Source: a bacterium (GTDB lineage Bacteria > Patescibacteriota > Saccharimonadia > Saccharimonadales > UBA4665). From it: DNA of 58,450 bases. The notes beneath the pieces are model-generated. The model was not told the origin of the DNA. It saw only the letters and a list, made by a program, of their open reading frames with translations, and made no database searches. Where the stretch lies: positions 14,439 through 72,888 of the forward strand of contig DAIDMV010000001.1 in assembly GCA_027448765.1 (NCBI GenBank). The letters are read 5' to 3'. The translations under genes and the position numbers were made by a program. This document shows, piece after piece, positions 35,593 through 40,450 of this stretch (its first letter is position 1; every line of letters starts with the position of its first letter).

Positions 35593-35763
35593 ATAGCTTA
35601 TAGACATCAATTAACTAACGGTAAGTTTGCAACCGAAGTTTTCAATTATCTATCACAAGCTAAGTTTGACCCTAATAACCCTCAACATGTTGAGAGAGTT
35701 GCTAGTCCCAAGACCGCTATTTTAGCAGATTCCTGCTTTATCAATAATTTATTAGCTAGCTAG
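35593..35763 (+). pseudogene. Coding remnant at the start of the tRNA-Lys island
   Basis: A frame of 56 codons without an ATG reads IAYRHQLTNGKFATEVFNYL, SQAKFDPNNPQHVERVASPK and TAILADSCFINNLLAS before TAG. It has protein-like composition but I recognise no family. From 35764 to 36061 I see no gene; a small hairpin GTCTGAAGAC lies at 35873-35882. Confidence 0.35.
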
Positions 35764-36061
35764 TGGTCATTAGAGAAAGATACTATAAGAAAGGGTAAAA
35801 TTAAATTGGTTTTAGTGAAATTTCAGTTACTCAGGATAAAAAAGAGTTTATACCCGGAGGTAATTAAAAATCGTCTGAAGACGCTGATTTTGTCGTAGTG
35901 TAGGTCCTGTAAAGAAGTAAGTTGTATATTTTTCACCCAAGAATTTCTTAAATGGAGGCAACTTCTTGATAGTCAACATAGACAGGCTCGAATTCAAAAG
36001 AATGAATAAAATTAATTTGACATTATAGCTAATAGGTAGCATTCGTGGTAAAATGTATTAT

Positions 36062-36682
36062 ATGTCAGAAATTCTTACGTCAAGACGTTTTACTATTAAG
36101 CATTTGGCCGCATCGTTAGCCGTAACAGCACTATTTTTATCTGGCTGTGGTGAATCAAAACCTACTTCAACCACCCCAAGAGTGAAATCAGTAAATGAGG
36201 TACCCAACTTTTCTAAGTTGACTAAAGGAGGGGTTTCTTGTGAGCAGGGATATCCTAGGCCTTGTTACCAACCCTTATATAAAAGCCCTAAAGAAGAACG
36301 TCCTTTAACAACTAACGATATAGTTAATGCTTATTCTGTTTCAGGAAACATAGCACATGTTGATTGGCCCTATGAAACTTATGGACAACATATTGGCAAT
36401 TCTGTATCTGTCGTATGTCAAGTTAAAGGTGAATCAATCTCTAATGCATATGGGCAAAGTACAAAAGTATGGGATGTTATTAAAGTACCTGTTTCGGAAA
36501 TTAATTCACAGGCATTATCTGAAGCAGAAAGTGGCAACGCTAGTTTTGGTGTCGAGAAGAATGGGCAAGGAAAAGTTGAAGCGATATTTGCTTACGCTTC
36601 AAGCATTTGGCTTGGTGGAACATTAAGTCAGTTAGGATCATGCAGTCAAATTGAAAACCCATCTAGATATCCAAATGCTTAA
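36062..36682 (+). CDS. Putative lipoprotein, hypothetical
   Basis: 206 residues from ATG 36062. The signal peptide has a basic start (SRRFTIKHLA) and a lipobox LFLSGC with Cys29 as the lipidation site. A proline/serine-rich linker and a compact domain with several cysteines follow (SCEQGYPRPCYQPLY, SVVCQVKGE, LGSCSQIEN), and a GEVKVWDVIKVP-like segment (STKVWDVIKVPVSEIN) is visible. TAAAAT lies 7 nt before the start (leaderless). GC content looks higher than in core genes. Outside the TA cassettes, but in the same island. Function unknown. Confidence 0.65.
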   Translation: MSEILTSRRFTIKHLAASLAVTALFLSGCGESKPTSTTPRVKSVNEVPNFSKLTKGGVSCEQGYPRPCYQPLYKSPKEERPLTTNDIVNAYSVSGNIAHVDWPYETYGQHIGNSVSVVCQVKGESISNAYGQSTKVWDVIKVPVSEINSQALSEAESGNASFGVEKNGQGKVEAIFAYASSIWLGGTLSQLGSCSQIENPSRYPNA

Positions 36683-36728
36683 TTATATATAAGGTAGCAT
36701 GATGGGGCAGAATTTTATAGGGAAAGAC

Positions 36729-36760
36729 TGGAGAGCTAAGTGTGACCTTAGCGCAACTGA
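36729..36760 (+). repeat. att-like direct repeat A (tRNA-Lys island)
   Basis: 32 nt. From its second base, the 31 nt match repeat B at 25 positions (mismatches at repeat positions 2, 6, 7, 9, 19 and 23). It starts TGGAG like the tRNA-Lys gene end and finishes GCGCAACTGA. The toxin stop codon of cassette A lies 18 nt to the right. Confidence 0.75.
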
Positions 36761-36777
36761 GATTAGTAAAGATTTTG

Positions 36778-37129
36778 CTATTTATATAGTTGACTGTGAG
36801 TACCTATAAAACCGAAGATAATAACAATATCGCCTTTGACCGTATACAGTGCACGGACATCACCGGTGACATCAATATCACGAACGATTTTTTCTACAAA
36901 TTGAGGTGTAATAACTTCTGCGACTCTAGATAAAAGATGAATACGACTTTTAGCCCCTTGTTTAGTGAGCTTAAATTTTTTAGTTAATACAGTTTCTAGT
37001 TCTTTAAGAATAAAAGGGGAGGTAACTAATTTAACATGCTCTCTTGAAACTGCTTGTTGCAAACGTAATATCTCTTCACGTCGAGAAAGAATTGTAGCTA
37101 AAACACTAGTGTCGTAAACGGACCCCCAT
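36778..37129 (-). pseudogene. Chimeric PIN / YafQ-like toxin with a 5' frameshift
   Basis: The first part reads VYDTSVLATILSRREEILRL then VTSPFILKELETVLTKKFKL up to AEVITP, which is a PIN (COG1569-like) toxin. The last 33 residues, DIDVTGDVRALYTVKGD then IVIIFGFIGTHSQLYK, match the C-terminus of the YafQ/RelE toxin at 39648 (SIDIQGDLRVIYYIKDGR then VIIFALIGTHSQLYG). So two toxin families are fused within one frame. ATG 37129, 6 nt after the antitoxin stop, is out of frame by one base in a G5 run; four Gs would give MGSVYDTSVL. The PIN catalytic C-terminal aspartates are lost. Probably inactive. Confidence 0.7.
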
Positions 37130-37135
37130 GACTAT

Positions 37136-37402
37136 TTAGGCTTTACTTTTCGTTTTTCTAACCTCTTTGCCGGCTCGTATAAAGTCATCGTCTGACGTGT
37201 AGCCTGATCGTTTGGCTTTCAACTGTAATTCATCAGCTCCTGCTGCTAAAGCATCCCAGACATCATTATCTTTTAATTGCAATCGGTTTACTACAGATTG
37301 ACGTATAAATTCACTACGAGTAGCATAATTTGCTTTAGCTACAGCATCGATTTTCTTAACTAATTCTTCTGGAAATGAAATGTTGATTATTTGTGATGCC
37401 AT
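37136..37402 (-). CDS. Ribbon-helix-helix antitoxin (CopG/ParD-like)
   Basis: 88 residues. IINISFPEELVKKIDAVAKANYATRSEFIRQSVVNRL is a typical RHH DNA-binding domain, with a basic C-terminal tail. It is the partner of the downstream PIN-derived toxin. TTGACA and TATAAT occur upstream on the minus strand (37457-37431 region), with a long AT-rich leader. It appears intact although its toxin is chimeric and frameshifted. Confidence 0.82.
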   Translation of the reverse strand: MASQIINISFPEELVKKIDAVAKANYATRSEFIRQSVVNRLQLKDNDVWDALAAGADELQLKAKRSGYTSDDDFIRAGKEVRKTKSKA

Positions 37403-38086
37403 ATAAATCCTATACTAATTACATATAAAAATTATAGTAAGTTTATATATATGTCAATACTGACTTTAACTACTAATAAGCATAAAAGTTCTAACACAAG
37501 TCATGTTAGAAGTGCACCCCAAGAATAATTTTCACTTCTCGATTAAAGAAATACTGTCTTAGAAAGAGTTATTAATGCGTGAGTTTCAAAGTTATTTATC
37601 TAACAATATTATGCAACCAGAAAGCTTTAGCAAGACATATTTTAATTTAGCTAGACGATCGTCATCGTGGAAGCTGTGGTAACCGAAATCAGGAACATCT
37701 AAGGGTATTAATGTCGAGCTACTTGCTCTGTTAAAATGAGGTAAAATAAATCTACGAACAAAGAAGATATAGACGATGGTACAGTTCGTAAAATACCAGC
37801 CAATTAAAAGAAAGTTATTGCTTGGCCTAAAGCACGAGTAGTCCGGCAAAGCCTTACGCCACTGTCACGCAATGAATGGATCTAGTGGACCGTGACAGTA
37901 AACAACATAAAACAAGATGATCATATTAAACGAGTGGTCTCTGAGCTGAAAAAAGGAATGCGTCGACCTTGTTGCTGGCAAGGTTGTTAGTACTTTTGGG
38001 GACCATGTTCAATTGCACCTGCGGCAATAAATATTATGTGCCACTTTGACACCAAACAAGACATTATTGTAGTCTTTTTTGGTTCG
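37403..38086. other. Stretch without an intact gene in cassette A
   Basis: I find only short frames, such as 37575-37682 on the plus strand (35 codons, MREFQSYLSNNIMQPESFSK...). There is also a hairpin with arms CTGTCACG (37861-37868) and CGTGACAG. It looks like decayed coding sequence of unknown origin between the antitoxin promoter and repeat B. Confidence 0.5.
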
Positions 38087-38118
38087 TAGAGGACCAAGTG
38101 TGACTTTATCGCAACTGA
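38087..38118 (+). repeat. att-like direct repeat B (tRNA-Lys island)
   Basis: The 24 nt from 38083 to 38106 match the tRNA-Lys gene end (40370-40393) at 21 positions, with the same TTCGT before it. The right end TATCGCAACTGA is not tRNA-like but is shared with repeats A and C. It marks the left end of the VapBC cassette. Confidence 0.8.
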
Positions 38119-38202
38119 ATCAAAAGAGAGAGTCCTAACTTATTTATTGCTACATTAAACGAAACCATTGCGTGTAGCACGTGAATTTGTTATAGTAATT
38201 AC

Positions 38203-38436
38203 ATGAAGCAGAATATAACAGTACAACTGGATCAGTCGATAATCCGTGACGCTAAAGTCTTGGCGGCCAAAAGGTCATCCTCCTTGAGTAAGTTTTTATC
38301 TGATCAGATACAGTTGATTGCAGCCCAAGAATCCGACTACGAGCGTAATAAAAAGCTGGCTCTTGCAAGGCTTGATAAGGGTTATTCTCTAGGTGGTGGC
38401 AAGATGCCCAAACGAGAAGAATTATATAACAGATGA
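38203..38436 (+). CDS. Antitoxin, VapB-like
   Basis: 77 residues. MKQNITVQLDQSIIRDAKVL then AAKRSSSLSKFLSDQIQLIA is a strand-helix-helix DNA-binding domain. The tail (LDKGYSLGGGKMPKREELYN) is the glycine-rich stretch typical for antitoxins that thread into a PIN toxin active site. It overlaps the toxin start by 4 nt, so the pair is translationally coupled. TATAGT lies 8 nt upstream of ATG 38203. Confidence 0.8.
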   Translation: MKQNITVQLDQSIIRDAKVLAAKRSSSLSKFLSDQIQLIAAQESDYERNKKLALARLDKGYSLGGGKMPKREELYNR

Positions 38437-38843
38437 TTTTTTTAGATACGAATATCCTAGTATACGCTTATGATTTGGATGAAAAATCTAAGCGTCAAAC
38501 AGCTAAAGCTATTTTGGTCGATTGTTGGAATAATCGTTCGGGGATTATTAGTACTCAAGTACTCCAAGAGTTCTATGTAACTTTAACTCGTAAATTGTCG
38601 AGTAAACTGCCCGCCACTGAAGCCAGAGCGGTAATTAGAGATTTCTTCCCGTGGTCAATTTATCAAATCGCTCCTACAGACATAGCTGAGGCTTCAGAAA
38701 TAGAAGATCAATATGGATACACATTTTGGGACTCTTTAGTTATTACAGCCGCACGAAATGCTAGTGCAGAAGTATTATACAGTGAAGATATGCAAGACGG
38801 TCAGAAGTTAGGTGATCTAAAAATTATTAACCCATTTAAGTAG
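38433..38843 (+). CDS. vapC: PIN-domain RNase toxin VapC
   Basis: 136 residues with a complete acidic centre: D5 (FLDTNILVYAYD), E46 (STQVLQEFYVTL), D100 (FWDSLVITAA) and D119 (YSEDMQDG). VapC toxins are Mg2+-dependent endoribonucleases, mostly against tRNA or 23S rRNA. This is the most clearly intact TA module of the island, in cassette B, and lies on the opposite strand to the neighbouring TA pairs. Confidence 0.9.
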   Translation: MIFLDTNILVYAYDLDEKSKRQTAKAILVDCWNNRSGIISTQVLQEFYVTLTRKLSSKLPATEARAVIRDFFPWSIYQIAPTDIAEASEIEDQYGYTFWDSLVITAARNASAEVLYSEDMQDGQKLGDLKIINPFK

Positions 38844-38912
38844 AACAGCACATTGCTCGTGGTTGTGGAGGGTCATCGTAGTCATGCAACTATTTTCCAA
38901 TCATACAATAAT

Positions 38913-39513
38913 TTAAAGATTACTAGTGGCTAAGATTTTTTGAGCGTCTATATTCACAAGTTCAGAGGCACTTTTCTTAGTTTTTGCATAATAGTCTTTA
39001 CAAAGTTTATAAGTATCGCTATATCCAAACCACCTATCTATGTCTTTTCTCCTCAAAAACTAATCACTATGGTCATAGATTTTTGAATTAATTAGTTTGT
39101 TAGCTTTAGCGATTTGTTTATCTTTTAAGCTACCATTGCCATAGATTGGAGTTCTGCCATCATGCTGTTCTTCGTATAGACAAGCCATACCTTCTGAAAT
39201 CACTGCCTCACCCAAAGTCTCACCATAGCCTGGTTTACGTCATCTCATACAATGATGGATTTCGTGCAATGGGGTTTCGTTTAATCCGTCTTGGGTAATT
39301 TTGTTTGAATTTGGAGTCAAATGAAACACAAACATGATCAGGGCTTGGCGAATTACCACTAATGCCATATTCTGGAATGACTAACGCTACTGCGGAGACA
39401 AATATGATGTCTATCTTTGTGGCGTCTAATTCTTTTTCAACAATCGGAATAACTGTACTGAGTGATTTTGAAGTTATATCAATCAATTTATCTAGTTCGC
39501 CTATTGAAGGCAT
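38913..39513 (-). pseudogene. Decayed Zn-dependent protease-like gene (DUF2268 type)
   Basis: The frame begins MPSIGELDKLIDITSKSLST then IDIIFVSAVALVIPEYGISG up to VSFD, then shifts by one base and continues PNSNKITQDGLNETPLHEIHHCMR. HEIHH is the zinc-binding HEXXH. It then passes a TGA, continues RKPGYGETLGEAVISEGMAC (second zinc region), passes a TAG after HSD, and ends near KIL. Both stops lie where tryptophan is expected (MRWRKP, HSDWFL). Three lesions mean it is dead. It is passenger DNA of cassette B. Confidence 0.72.
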
Positions 39514-39530
39514 ATTATTAGTGTATCAAA

Positions 39531-39555
39531 AAATAGAGGTAAATTACCTCTATTT
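39531..39555. promoter_or_regulatory. Perfect 25-bp palindrome before the decayed protease
   Basis: AAATAGAGGTAA and TTACCTCTATTT flank a single base. It lies 17 nt upstream of the pseudogene start on its strand and 16 nt left of repeat C. It may be an operator or part of a recombination site. Confidence 0.4.
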
Positions 39556-39570
39556 AAAGTGTCAGCGTAT

Positions 39571-39602
39571 TGGAGGGCCTAGTGTAAAACTATTACAACT
39601 GA
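39571..39602 (+). repeat. att-like direct repeat C (tRNA-Lys island)
   Basis: From its second base, 22 of 31 nt match repeat B. The first 14 nt (TGGAGGGCCTAGTG) match the tRNA-Lys end at 12 positions. It ends ACAACTGA. It lies 45 nt before the YafQ toxin stop, so it marks the left end of the YafQ-DinJ cassette. Confidence 0.7.
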
Positions 39603-39647
39603 GTTGAGACTTCATCCAGCCGTTTTTATTACCAATTTACATATAAT

Positions 39648-39917
39648 TTAACCGTATAGCTGGCTATGGGTACCAATTAAGGCAAATATAATAACTCTGC
39701 CGTCTTTAATATAGTAAATCACTCTTAAATCACCTTGAATATCTATACTACGACATCCCTTGTAGTTACCTTTTAAAGCATGGTCGCGGAGTACTTTATC
39801 ATTAGGGTTCTTCTTAAATAAATCTAAACGTTCATAGAAACGATTTTGTTGAGTTTCACGAAGCTTTTTAAATTGTTTAGTAAAGCCTTTCGTAAATTGA
39901 ATCTGGTGATACAACAT
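39648..39917 (-). CDS. RelE/YafQ-family mRNA interferase toxin
   Basis: 89 residues. FTKGFTKQFKKLRETQQNRF is the N-terminal helix pair, DHALKGNYKGCRSIDIQGDL the central strand region, and RVIYYIKDGRVIIFALIGTH the RelE-fold end, with the YafQ-type catalytic histidine in GTHSQLYG. It cleaves mRNA on the ribosome when freed from its antitoxin. The start lies 3 nt after the antitoxin stop. Its C-terminus is closely related to the end of the chimeric toxin at 36778, so the cassettes have exchanged sequence. Confidence 0.88.
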   Translation of the reverse strand: MLYHQIQFTKGFTKQFKKLRETQQNRFYERLDLFKKNPNDKVLRDHALKGNYKGCRSIDIQGDLRVIYYIKDGRVIIFALIGTHSQLYG

Positions 39918-39920
39918 AAA

Positions 39921-40196
39921 CTAAAGGCTTTTAAGGTAATCTATTGCTTCTTGAGCCGTATTGAATGCTGGACTAAGCTCACCGGACTCTATTTCCTTCT
40001 CTGCTTGCTCTATCAGTTTTTCCATTTTAGGAGTCATTATTTCAACCGCACTAAAATGAATCTGTCCTGTTTCAACTAATTCCATAAGGTAAGCGTTTAC
40101 AAGAGTGCTAAGAGGTATGCCAAAAGAGCCAGCTACTACCTGAGCTTGCTTTTTTATCTGTTCATTAACTTTAACGTTTAAAATAGCTGTCTTCAT
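39921..40196 (-). CDS. RelB/DinJ-family antitoxin
   Basis: 91 residues. MKTAILNVKVNEQIKKQAQV is the beta strand and helix of the RelB/DinJ ribbon-helix-helix domain (with FGIPLSTLVNAYLMELV), and the C-terminal part (EKLIEQAEKEIESGELSPAF then NTAQEAIDYLKSL) is the toxin-binding tail with the typical DinJ ending. It is encoded with YafQ and presumably represses its own promoter through the ACAAAGT inverted repeat at 40200-40217. Confidence 0.9.
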   Translation of the reverse strand: MKTAILNVKVNEQIKKQAQVVAGSFGIPLSTLVNAYLMELVETGQIHFSAVEIMTPKMEKLIEQAEKEIESGELSPAFNTAQEAIDYLKSL

Positions 40197-40199
40197 ATA

Positions 40200-40231
40200 A
40201 CAAAGTATACACTTTGTATATTTATTGTCAA
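40200..40231 (-). promoter_or_regulatory. Promoter and operator of dinJ-yafQ
   Basis: On the minus strand TTGACA (40231-40226) and TATACT (40209-40204) are 16 nt apart. The inverted repeat ACAAAGT-ATAC-ACTTTGT (40200-40217) covers the -10 box, a likely antitoxin site. Confidence 0.7.
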
Positions 40232-40373: not shown

Positions 40374-40450
40374 TGGAGGACCCAGTGAGACTTGAACTCA
40401 CGACACCCTGCTTAAAAGGCAGGTGCTCTAACCAGCTGAGCTATGGGTCC
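40374..40450 (-). tRNA. tRNA-Lys (UUU)
   Basis: 77 nt with CCA encoded (40374-40376). Acceptor GGACCCA/TGGGTCC, loop CTTTTAA giving anticodon UUU, and T arm GTGAG-TTCAAGT-CTCAC. The discriminator base is U (plus strand A40377), unusual for tRNA-Lys. The 3' third of the gene is the sequence copied in repeats A, B and C, which points to use as an integration site. Confidence 0.93.

Follow-up and report, generated by a model that had tools for sequence, protein, structure and literature searches.

Related toxin–antitoxin systems

Pseudogenes of toxin–antitoxin (TA) systems and orphan antitoxins occur in genomic islands, and TA decay and module shuffling are of a kind already known; the hybrid gene described here is a new instance of it. 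The gene lies on the minus strand of the window, the whole stretch of 58,450 nucleotides that was analysed, and its host genome comprises 744.6 kb in 96 contigs. As in those islands, a decayed toxin gene stands beside an intact antitoxin gene in a mobile TA cluster, but the decay here includes the in-frame join of two unrelated toxin folds. With the putative TA toxin of PIN_3 (PF13470) or TIGR00305, which is accompanied by an RHH antitoxin, the hybrid shares the N-terminal 80 residues, the operon layout and the RHH partner, whereas it has no usable start and its C-terminal third, with two acidic residues and the last strands and helices, is replaced. With the type II system DinJ–YafQ (RelE superfamily, PF15738) it shares the last 32 residues, the GDxR motif, the C-terminal His-Ser-Gln-Leu-Tyr and the 3' flank, whereas the first 54 YafQ residues and the cognate dinJ are absent. 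With its start out of frame and key elements of both parental active sites missing, the hybrid is almost certainly a defunct remnant rather than a new toxin.

Organization of the hybrid gene

The hybrid frame is open from 37131 to 36781 and reads SWGSVYDTSVLATILS...AEVITPQFVEKIVRDIDVTGDVRALYTVKGDIVIIFGFIGTHSQLYK, with a PIN half and a yafQ half joined in frame. Directly upstream, as the RHH–PIN toxin class requires, is an intact RHH (CopG-type) antitoxin gene of 88 aa on the minus strand (37136–37402; PF01402 RHH_1, E 3.8e-7), which agrees with the preliminary description. This antitoxin is the cognate of the PIN part and is identical at 82 of 88 residues to the antitoxin adjoining an intact PIN toxin in the congeneric genome G003. 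No DinJ/RelB antitoxin is found next to the hybrid; the neighbour is RHH_1, and the DinJ-like gene belongs to a separate pair at 39648–40196.

The 5' part of the gene (36874–37119, minus strand) encodes a PIN_3 toxin from V4 to the D-I of VRDI, without an in-frame start. The N-terminal 80 residues of the hybrid, from VYD on, match PF13470 with 29.5 bits against a cut-off of 27 (E 1.4e-6). The parent type is represented by the intact RHH–PIN pair of G003 (88 and 130 residues), to which the window aligns in a single local block that contains one one-base gap and ends at the joint, and the last 200 bp of the PIN part up to the joint are 95% identical to that genome (190/200). The PIN part had been proposed to end at AEVITP; it runs about 12 residues further, to VRDI, a stretch over which the hybrid and the intact orthologue do not differ.

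The 3' end of the gene (36778–36873, minus strand) encodes DVTGDVRALYTVKGDIVIIFGFIGTHSQLYK followed by the stop codon and derives from a yafQ gene. The parent type in this case is the intact DinJ–YafQ pair of G099 (L027 619–879), which belongs to another genus of the same family. The last 32 codons of the hybrid, the 3' flank and a 30-nt repeat exhibit 94.6% DNA identity to G099 over 149 bp (36729–36877), and the encoded tail is 97% identical to the tail of the intact G099 YafQ. Scores of the tail against toxin profiles are weak because it is short (YafQ_toxin E 0.16, RelE_StbE E 0.053) and remain below the YafQ and RelE cut-offs (PF15738, 12.7 bits against 30; TIGR02385, 14 against 27.9), yet the protein and DNA identities to G099 place its assignment to YafQ far beyond chance. 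The intact YafQ encoded at 39648 in the window was considered as the tail donor and rejected: the likeness noted in the preliminary description is real (58% of residues), but only 57 of 96 bases agree, which makes that gene a relative and not the source.

In a three-way comparison, the fusion point is the tetranucleotide TATT (36874–36877, minus strand), which is common to the PIN gene, the hybrid and yafQ. To the left of it 190 of 200 bases are those of the PIN gene against 61/200 for yafQ, and to the right 132 of 140 bases are those of yafQ against 45/140 for the PIN gene. The hybrid is a genuine recombinant of a PIN_3 toxin and a YafQ toxin, resolved to the base, and the earlier proposal that a PIN body had been joined in frame to a YafQ C-terminus by recombination is borne out by the PF13470 match and the identity to the G099 yafQ.

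An assembly or binning artefact, in which reads from two strains or species were joined, is very unlikely as the source of this structure. The genome is in 96 contigs and the tail resembles that of another genus, as such an artefact would suggest; however, the four-base identity at the joint is too short to serve as an assembler overlap, and the tail is identical to no genome compared. The contig is also 72.9 kb long, and both of its flanks are syntenic with genomes of the same genus (cupredoxin side, L025, 88.9% over 4705 bp; tRNA-Lys–YebC side, L059, 88% over 1209 bp). As the assembly consists of many contigs, an assembly error could account for the length change at the start described below or, with lower probability, for the joint.

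The preliminary description named a PIN family with a natural YafQ-like C-terminus as the finding that would overturn it. Such a family was rejected, as five of five full-length PIN relatives aligned keep an ordinary PIN C-terminus. A PIN–YafQ fusion covering both halves was found in none of 93 family genomes and none of 393 class genomes. Searches of GTDB contigs returned the separate parents and no fusion, and viral contigs, plasmids and phages gave no match to it. A longer match in G062 (L047) was examined as a second fusion and rejected as an ordinary YafQ. Literature searches brought up no PIN–RelE/YafQ chimera, which is weak evidence of absence.

Start codon, active sites and predicted structure

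The 5' end of the PIN gene (37120–37129, minus strand) consists of an ATG and then a stretch that differs in length by one base from the intact orthologue, as identified from the reading frames and the pairwise alignment with G003; the change sits within the first five codons. The ATG at 37129–37127, which follows the antitoxin gene, is out of the toxin frame and yields MGVRLRH before a stop, a product of 7 residues. The gene start proposed earlier near 37129 is unusable because this ATG is in another frame, and the in-frame start codon expected of an RHH–PIN toxin after its antitoxin gene is absent. Of the three start codons ATG, GTG and TTG, the first to occur in the toxin frame is a TTG at 37062, which lies past the first active-site Asp and opens a frame of 94 residues. 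A promoter and terminator scan performed no better than shuffles.

Two of the four acidic active-site residues of the PIN domain are encoded in the hybrid, the first Asp and the Glu. The Asp of the NDD/DDD motif and the Asp of TxDKD are missing; both are present in the close intact toxins, and a distant PIN protein (L003) has SSDN at the position of the NDD/DDD motif. The assignment of these Asp residues as catalytic follows what is generally known about PIN nucleases. The YafQ part corresponds to residues 55–86 of a donor-type YafQ of 86 residues, and without the first 54 residues the N-terminal helices and the conserved H43 are gone and H81 is kept, so that the hybrid does not have a complete RelE fold with its active-site histidines. 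In E. coli YafQ, His50, His63, His87, Asp67 and Phe91 all matter (PMC7584586), so the C-terminal His alone should not suffice. If the hybrid yields a product, it lacks part of each active site and is expected to have neither PIN nor YafQ RNase activity.

The structure prediction called for in the preliminary description was run with AlphaFold2 and gave a hybrid model with pLDDT 77.6 and pTM 0.56, in which the joint has a pLDDT below 50 and is predicted to be disordered; the search for the same fusion, also called for, found no second one. The model had no match in the PDB at E <= 0.001. The intact PIN protein, modelled from a shallower alignment, reached pLDDT 91.4 and pTM 0.84 and matched seven PDB entries, which are VapC structures. 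A sequence search identified no PIN relatives in the PDB.

A functional hybrid, acting as a new toxin or as a decoy that would titrate an antitoxin or block a toxin, is extremely improbable. The frame is open through the joint, the TTG at 37062 provides its 94-residue frame, and the conserved PIN Glu and the GDxR and THSQLY motifs of YafQ are retained; however, the PIN N-terminus has no start codon, each active site is partly missing, the joint is poorly predicted and the fusion occurs once. It is also highly improbable that the truncated hybrid beginning at the TTG, or the RHH antitoxin without its toxin, counters related TA modules that move among these Saccharibacteria, as an antidote or a decoy. 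Of the two options in the preliminary description, the dead hybrid fits the out-of-frame start and the two incomplete active sites, and hardly any evidence speaks for a new toxin or antidote. Automated annotation could take such a frame for a new toxin.

Neighbouring modules and the cassette repeat

Two intact TA pairs follow in the window. The first (38203–38843, plus strand) encodes a DUF6364-like antitoxin (PF19891, E 1.5e-5, just below the cut-off) and a VapC-like PIN toxin (PF01850, E 1.7e-10), and the region of this VapBC-like pair (38082–38864) is 89% identical to G032. The second (39648–40196, minus strand) encodes the DinJ/RelB-like antitoxin and YafQ toxin mentioned above (PF15738, E 6.7e-15).

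The repeats that had been described around the cassettes were recovered by a repeat search. Copy R1 (36731–36760, plus strand) adjoins the yafQ tail on its donor side and is also located 3' of yafQ in G099 and 3' of the intact PIN gene in G003. Copy R2 (38089–38118, plus strand) is a direct repeat of R1 that bounds the cassette ahead of the VapBC-like pair, and its position beside this pair is the same in G099 (L027) and G032 (L067). The repeat is about 30 nt long (consensus about GGAGGGCCCAGTGTGACCTTATCGCAACTGAG) and marks the edges of TA cassettes, with a further copy in the window at 39573–39602 and others in G003, G004, G032, G077, G088 and G099. With at most 3 mismatches it is present at 8 sites in 5 of 93 family genomes, most of them adjoining TA genes. 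The copy at 38089 closely matches the 3' end of tRNA-Lys (40374–40450; local score 16, with none of 2000 shuffles as good) and, judging from this match, could be an old attachment site; the match of R1 to the same end is not significant. No site-specific recombinase was found near the locus; the only Phage_integrase-family gene of the genome lies on another contig and so lends no support to recombinase-driven exchange.

Origin of the fusion

The hybrid is very probably a pseudogene that arose when a TA hot spot was rearranged by a deletion between tandem toxin genes. An RHH–PIN module and a DinJ–YafQ module of the G099 type would have stood in tandem on the same strand, and a deletion reaching from within one toxin gene to within the other, with its ends joined at the four bases TATT common to both, would have taken the 3' half of the PIN gene, the intervening DNA, dinJ and the 5' part of yafQ. 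What would remain is PIN'-'yafQ with the 3' flank of yafQ and the repeat behind it, and the intact RHH antitoxin as an orphan. The frame-shifting length change near the PIN start broke the gene as well, before or after the deletion. In the relative G082, an RHH–PIN pair and then a DinJ–YafQ pair are in tandem on one strand (L038 1866 down to 143), an arrangement from which, judged by its layout, one deletion would yield such a fusion. A tandem intermediate with the actual donor modules was not found among the genomes compared. Two features count against a pseudogene. The PIN part has a low dN/dS relative to G003 (0.29), though most of this divergence may predate the fusion. The join also preserves the reading frame, which a dead gene does not require, although chance alone would preserve it in one case in three.

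The state of the locus in other genera bears on the route. DNA matching 36729–36877 and 38089–38342 brackets DinJ–YafQ in G099, where this pair sits between two repeat copies beside the same VapBC-like pair. In G032 only about 320 bases and one repeat separate the lipoprotein gene described below from the VapBC-like pair. It is possible, if rather unlikely, that an RHH–PIN cassette replaced dinJ and the 5' part of yafQ in a locus of the G099 type (repeat–yafQ–dinJ–repeat–VapBC) with no tandem stage, through one crossover at TATT and a second within or close to the repeat at 38089; the end product would be the same pseudogene, and the route alone would differ. In both the window and G099 the cassette lies between the direct repeats R1 and R2, and donor-like DNA is present on both sides. 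The RHH–PIN cassette also has a dS of 0.11 against G003, compared with 0.49 and 0.75 for neighbouring genes, so it has moved separately. However, such an unequal double exchange would need one end with only four matching bases, and a tandem layout that permits a single deletion exists in G082. With the deletion between tandem genes as the preferred route, the locus would be a base-level case of how neighbouring TA modules decay, in which a deletion between unrelated toxin genes leaves an orphan antitoxin and a hybrid frame.

Variable content of the TA hot spot

The region 35646–40230, between a cupredoxin-like gene and tRNA-Lys–YebC, is a TA hot spot whose contents vary among genomes of the same genus, and parts of it exhibit about 80–95% DNA identity to other genera. 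Near this tRNA-Lys, modules pass from one Saccharibacteria genus to another, and a common 30-nt repeat stands at the cassette edges. The product of the gene at 36053–36682 is predicted to be a lipoprotein; it has 209 aa and matches no Pfam family. It was not found when six further genomes of the genus were searched and is 81–82% identical in G032 and G077, which belong to two other genera, where it is also in or near TA genes. The segments 35646–35881 and 37592–37849 are degenerate and by their look were formerly coding; parts of them also flank the RHH–PIN pair of G003 and recur in other relatives. Beside the DinJ–YafQ pair, 39060–39513 on the minus strand looks like a frame-shifted metalloprotease-like remnant with an LHEIHH stretch. 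In G004, another genome of the genus, a transposase-like frame (L007 733–975), IS3 OrfA-type by its look, interrupts the region beside the intact PIN gene.
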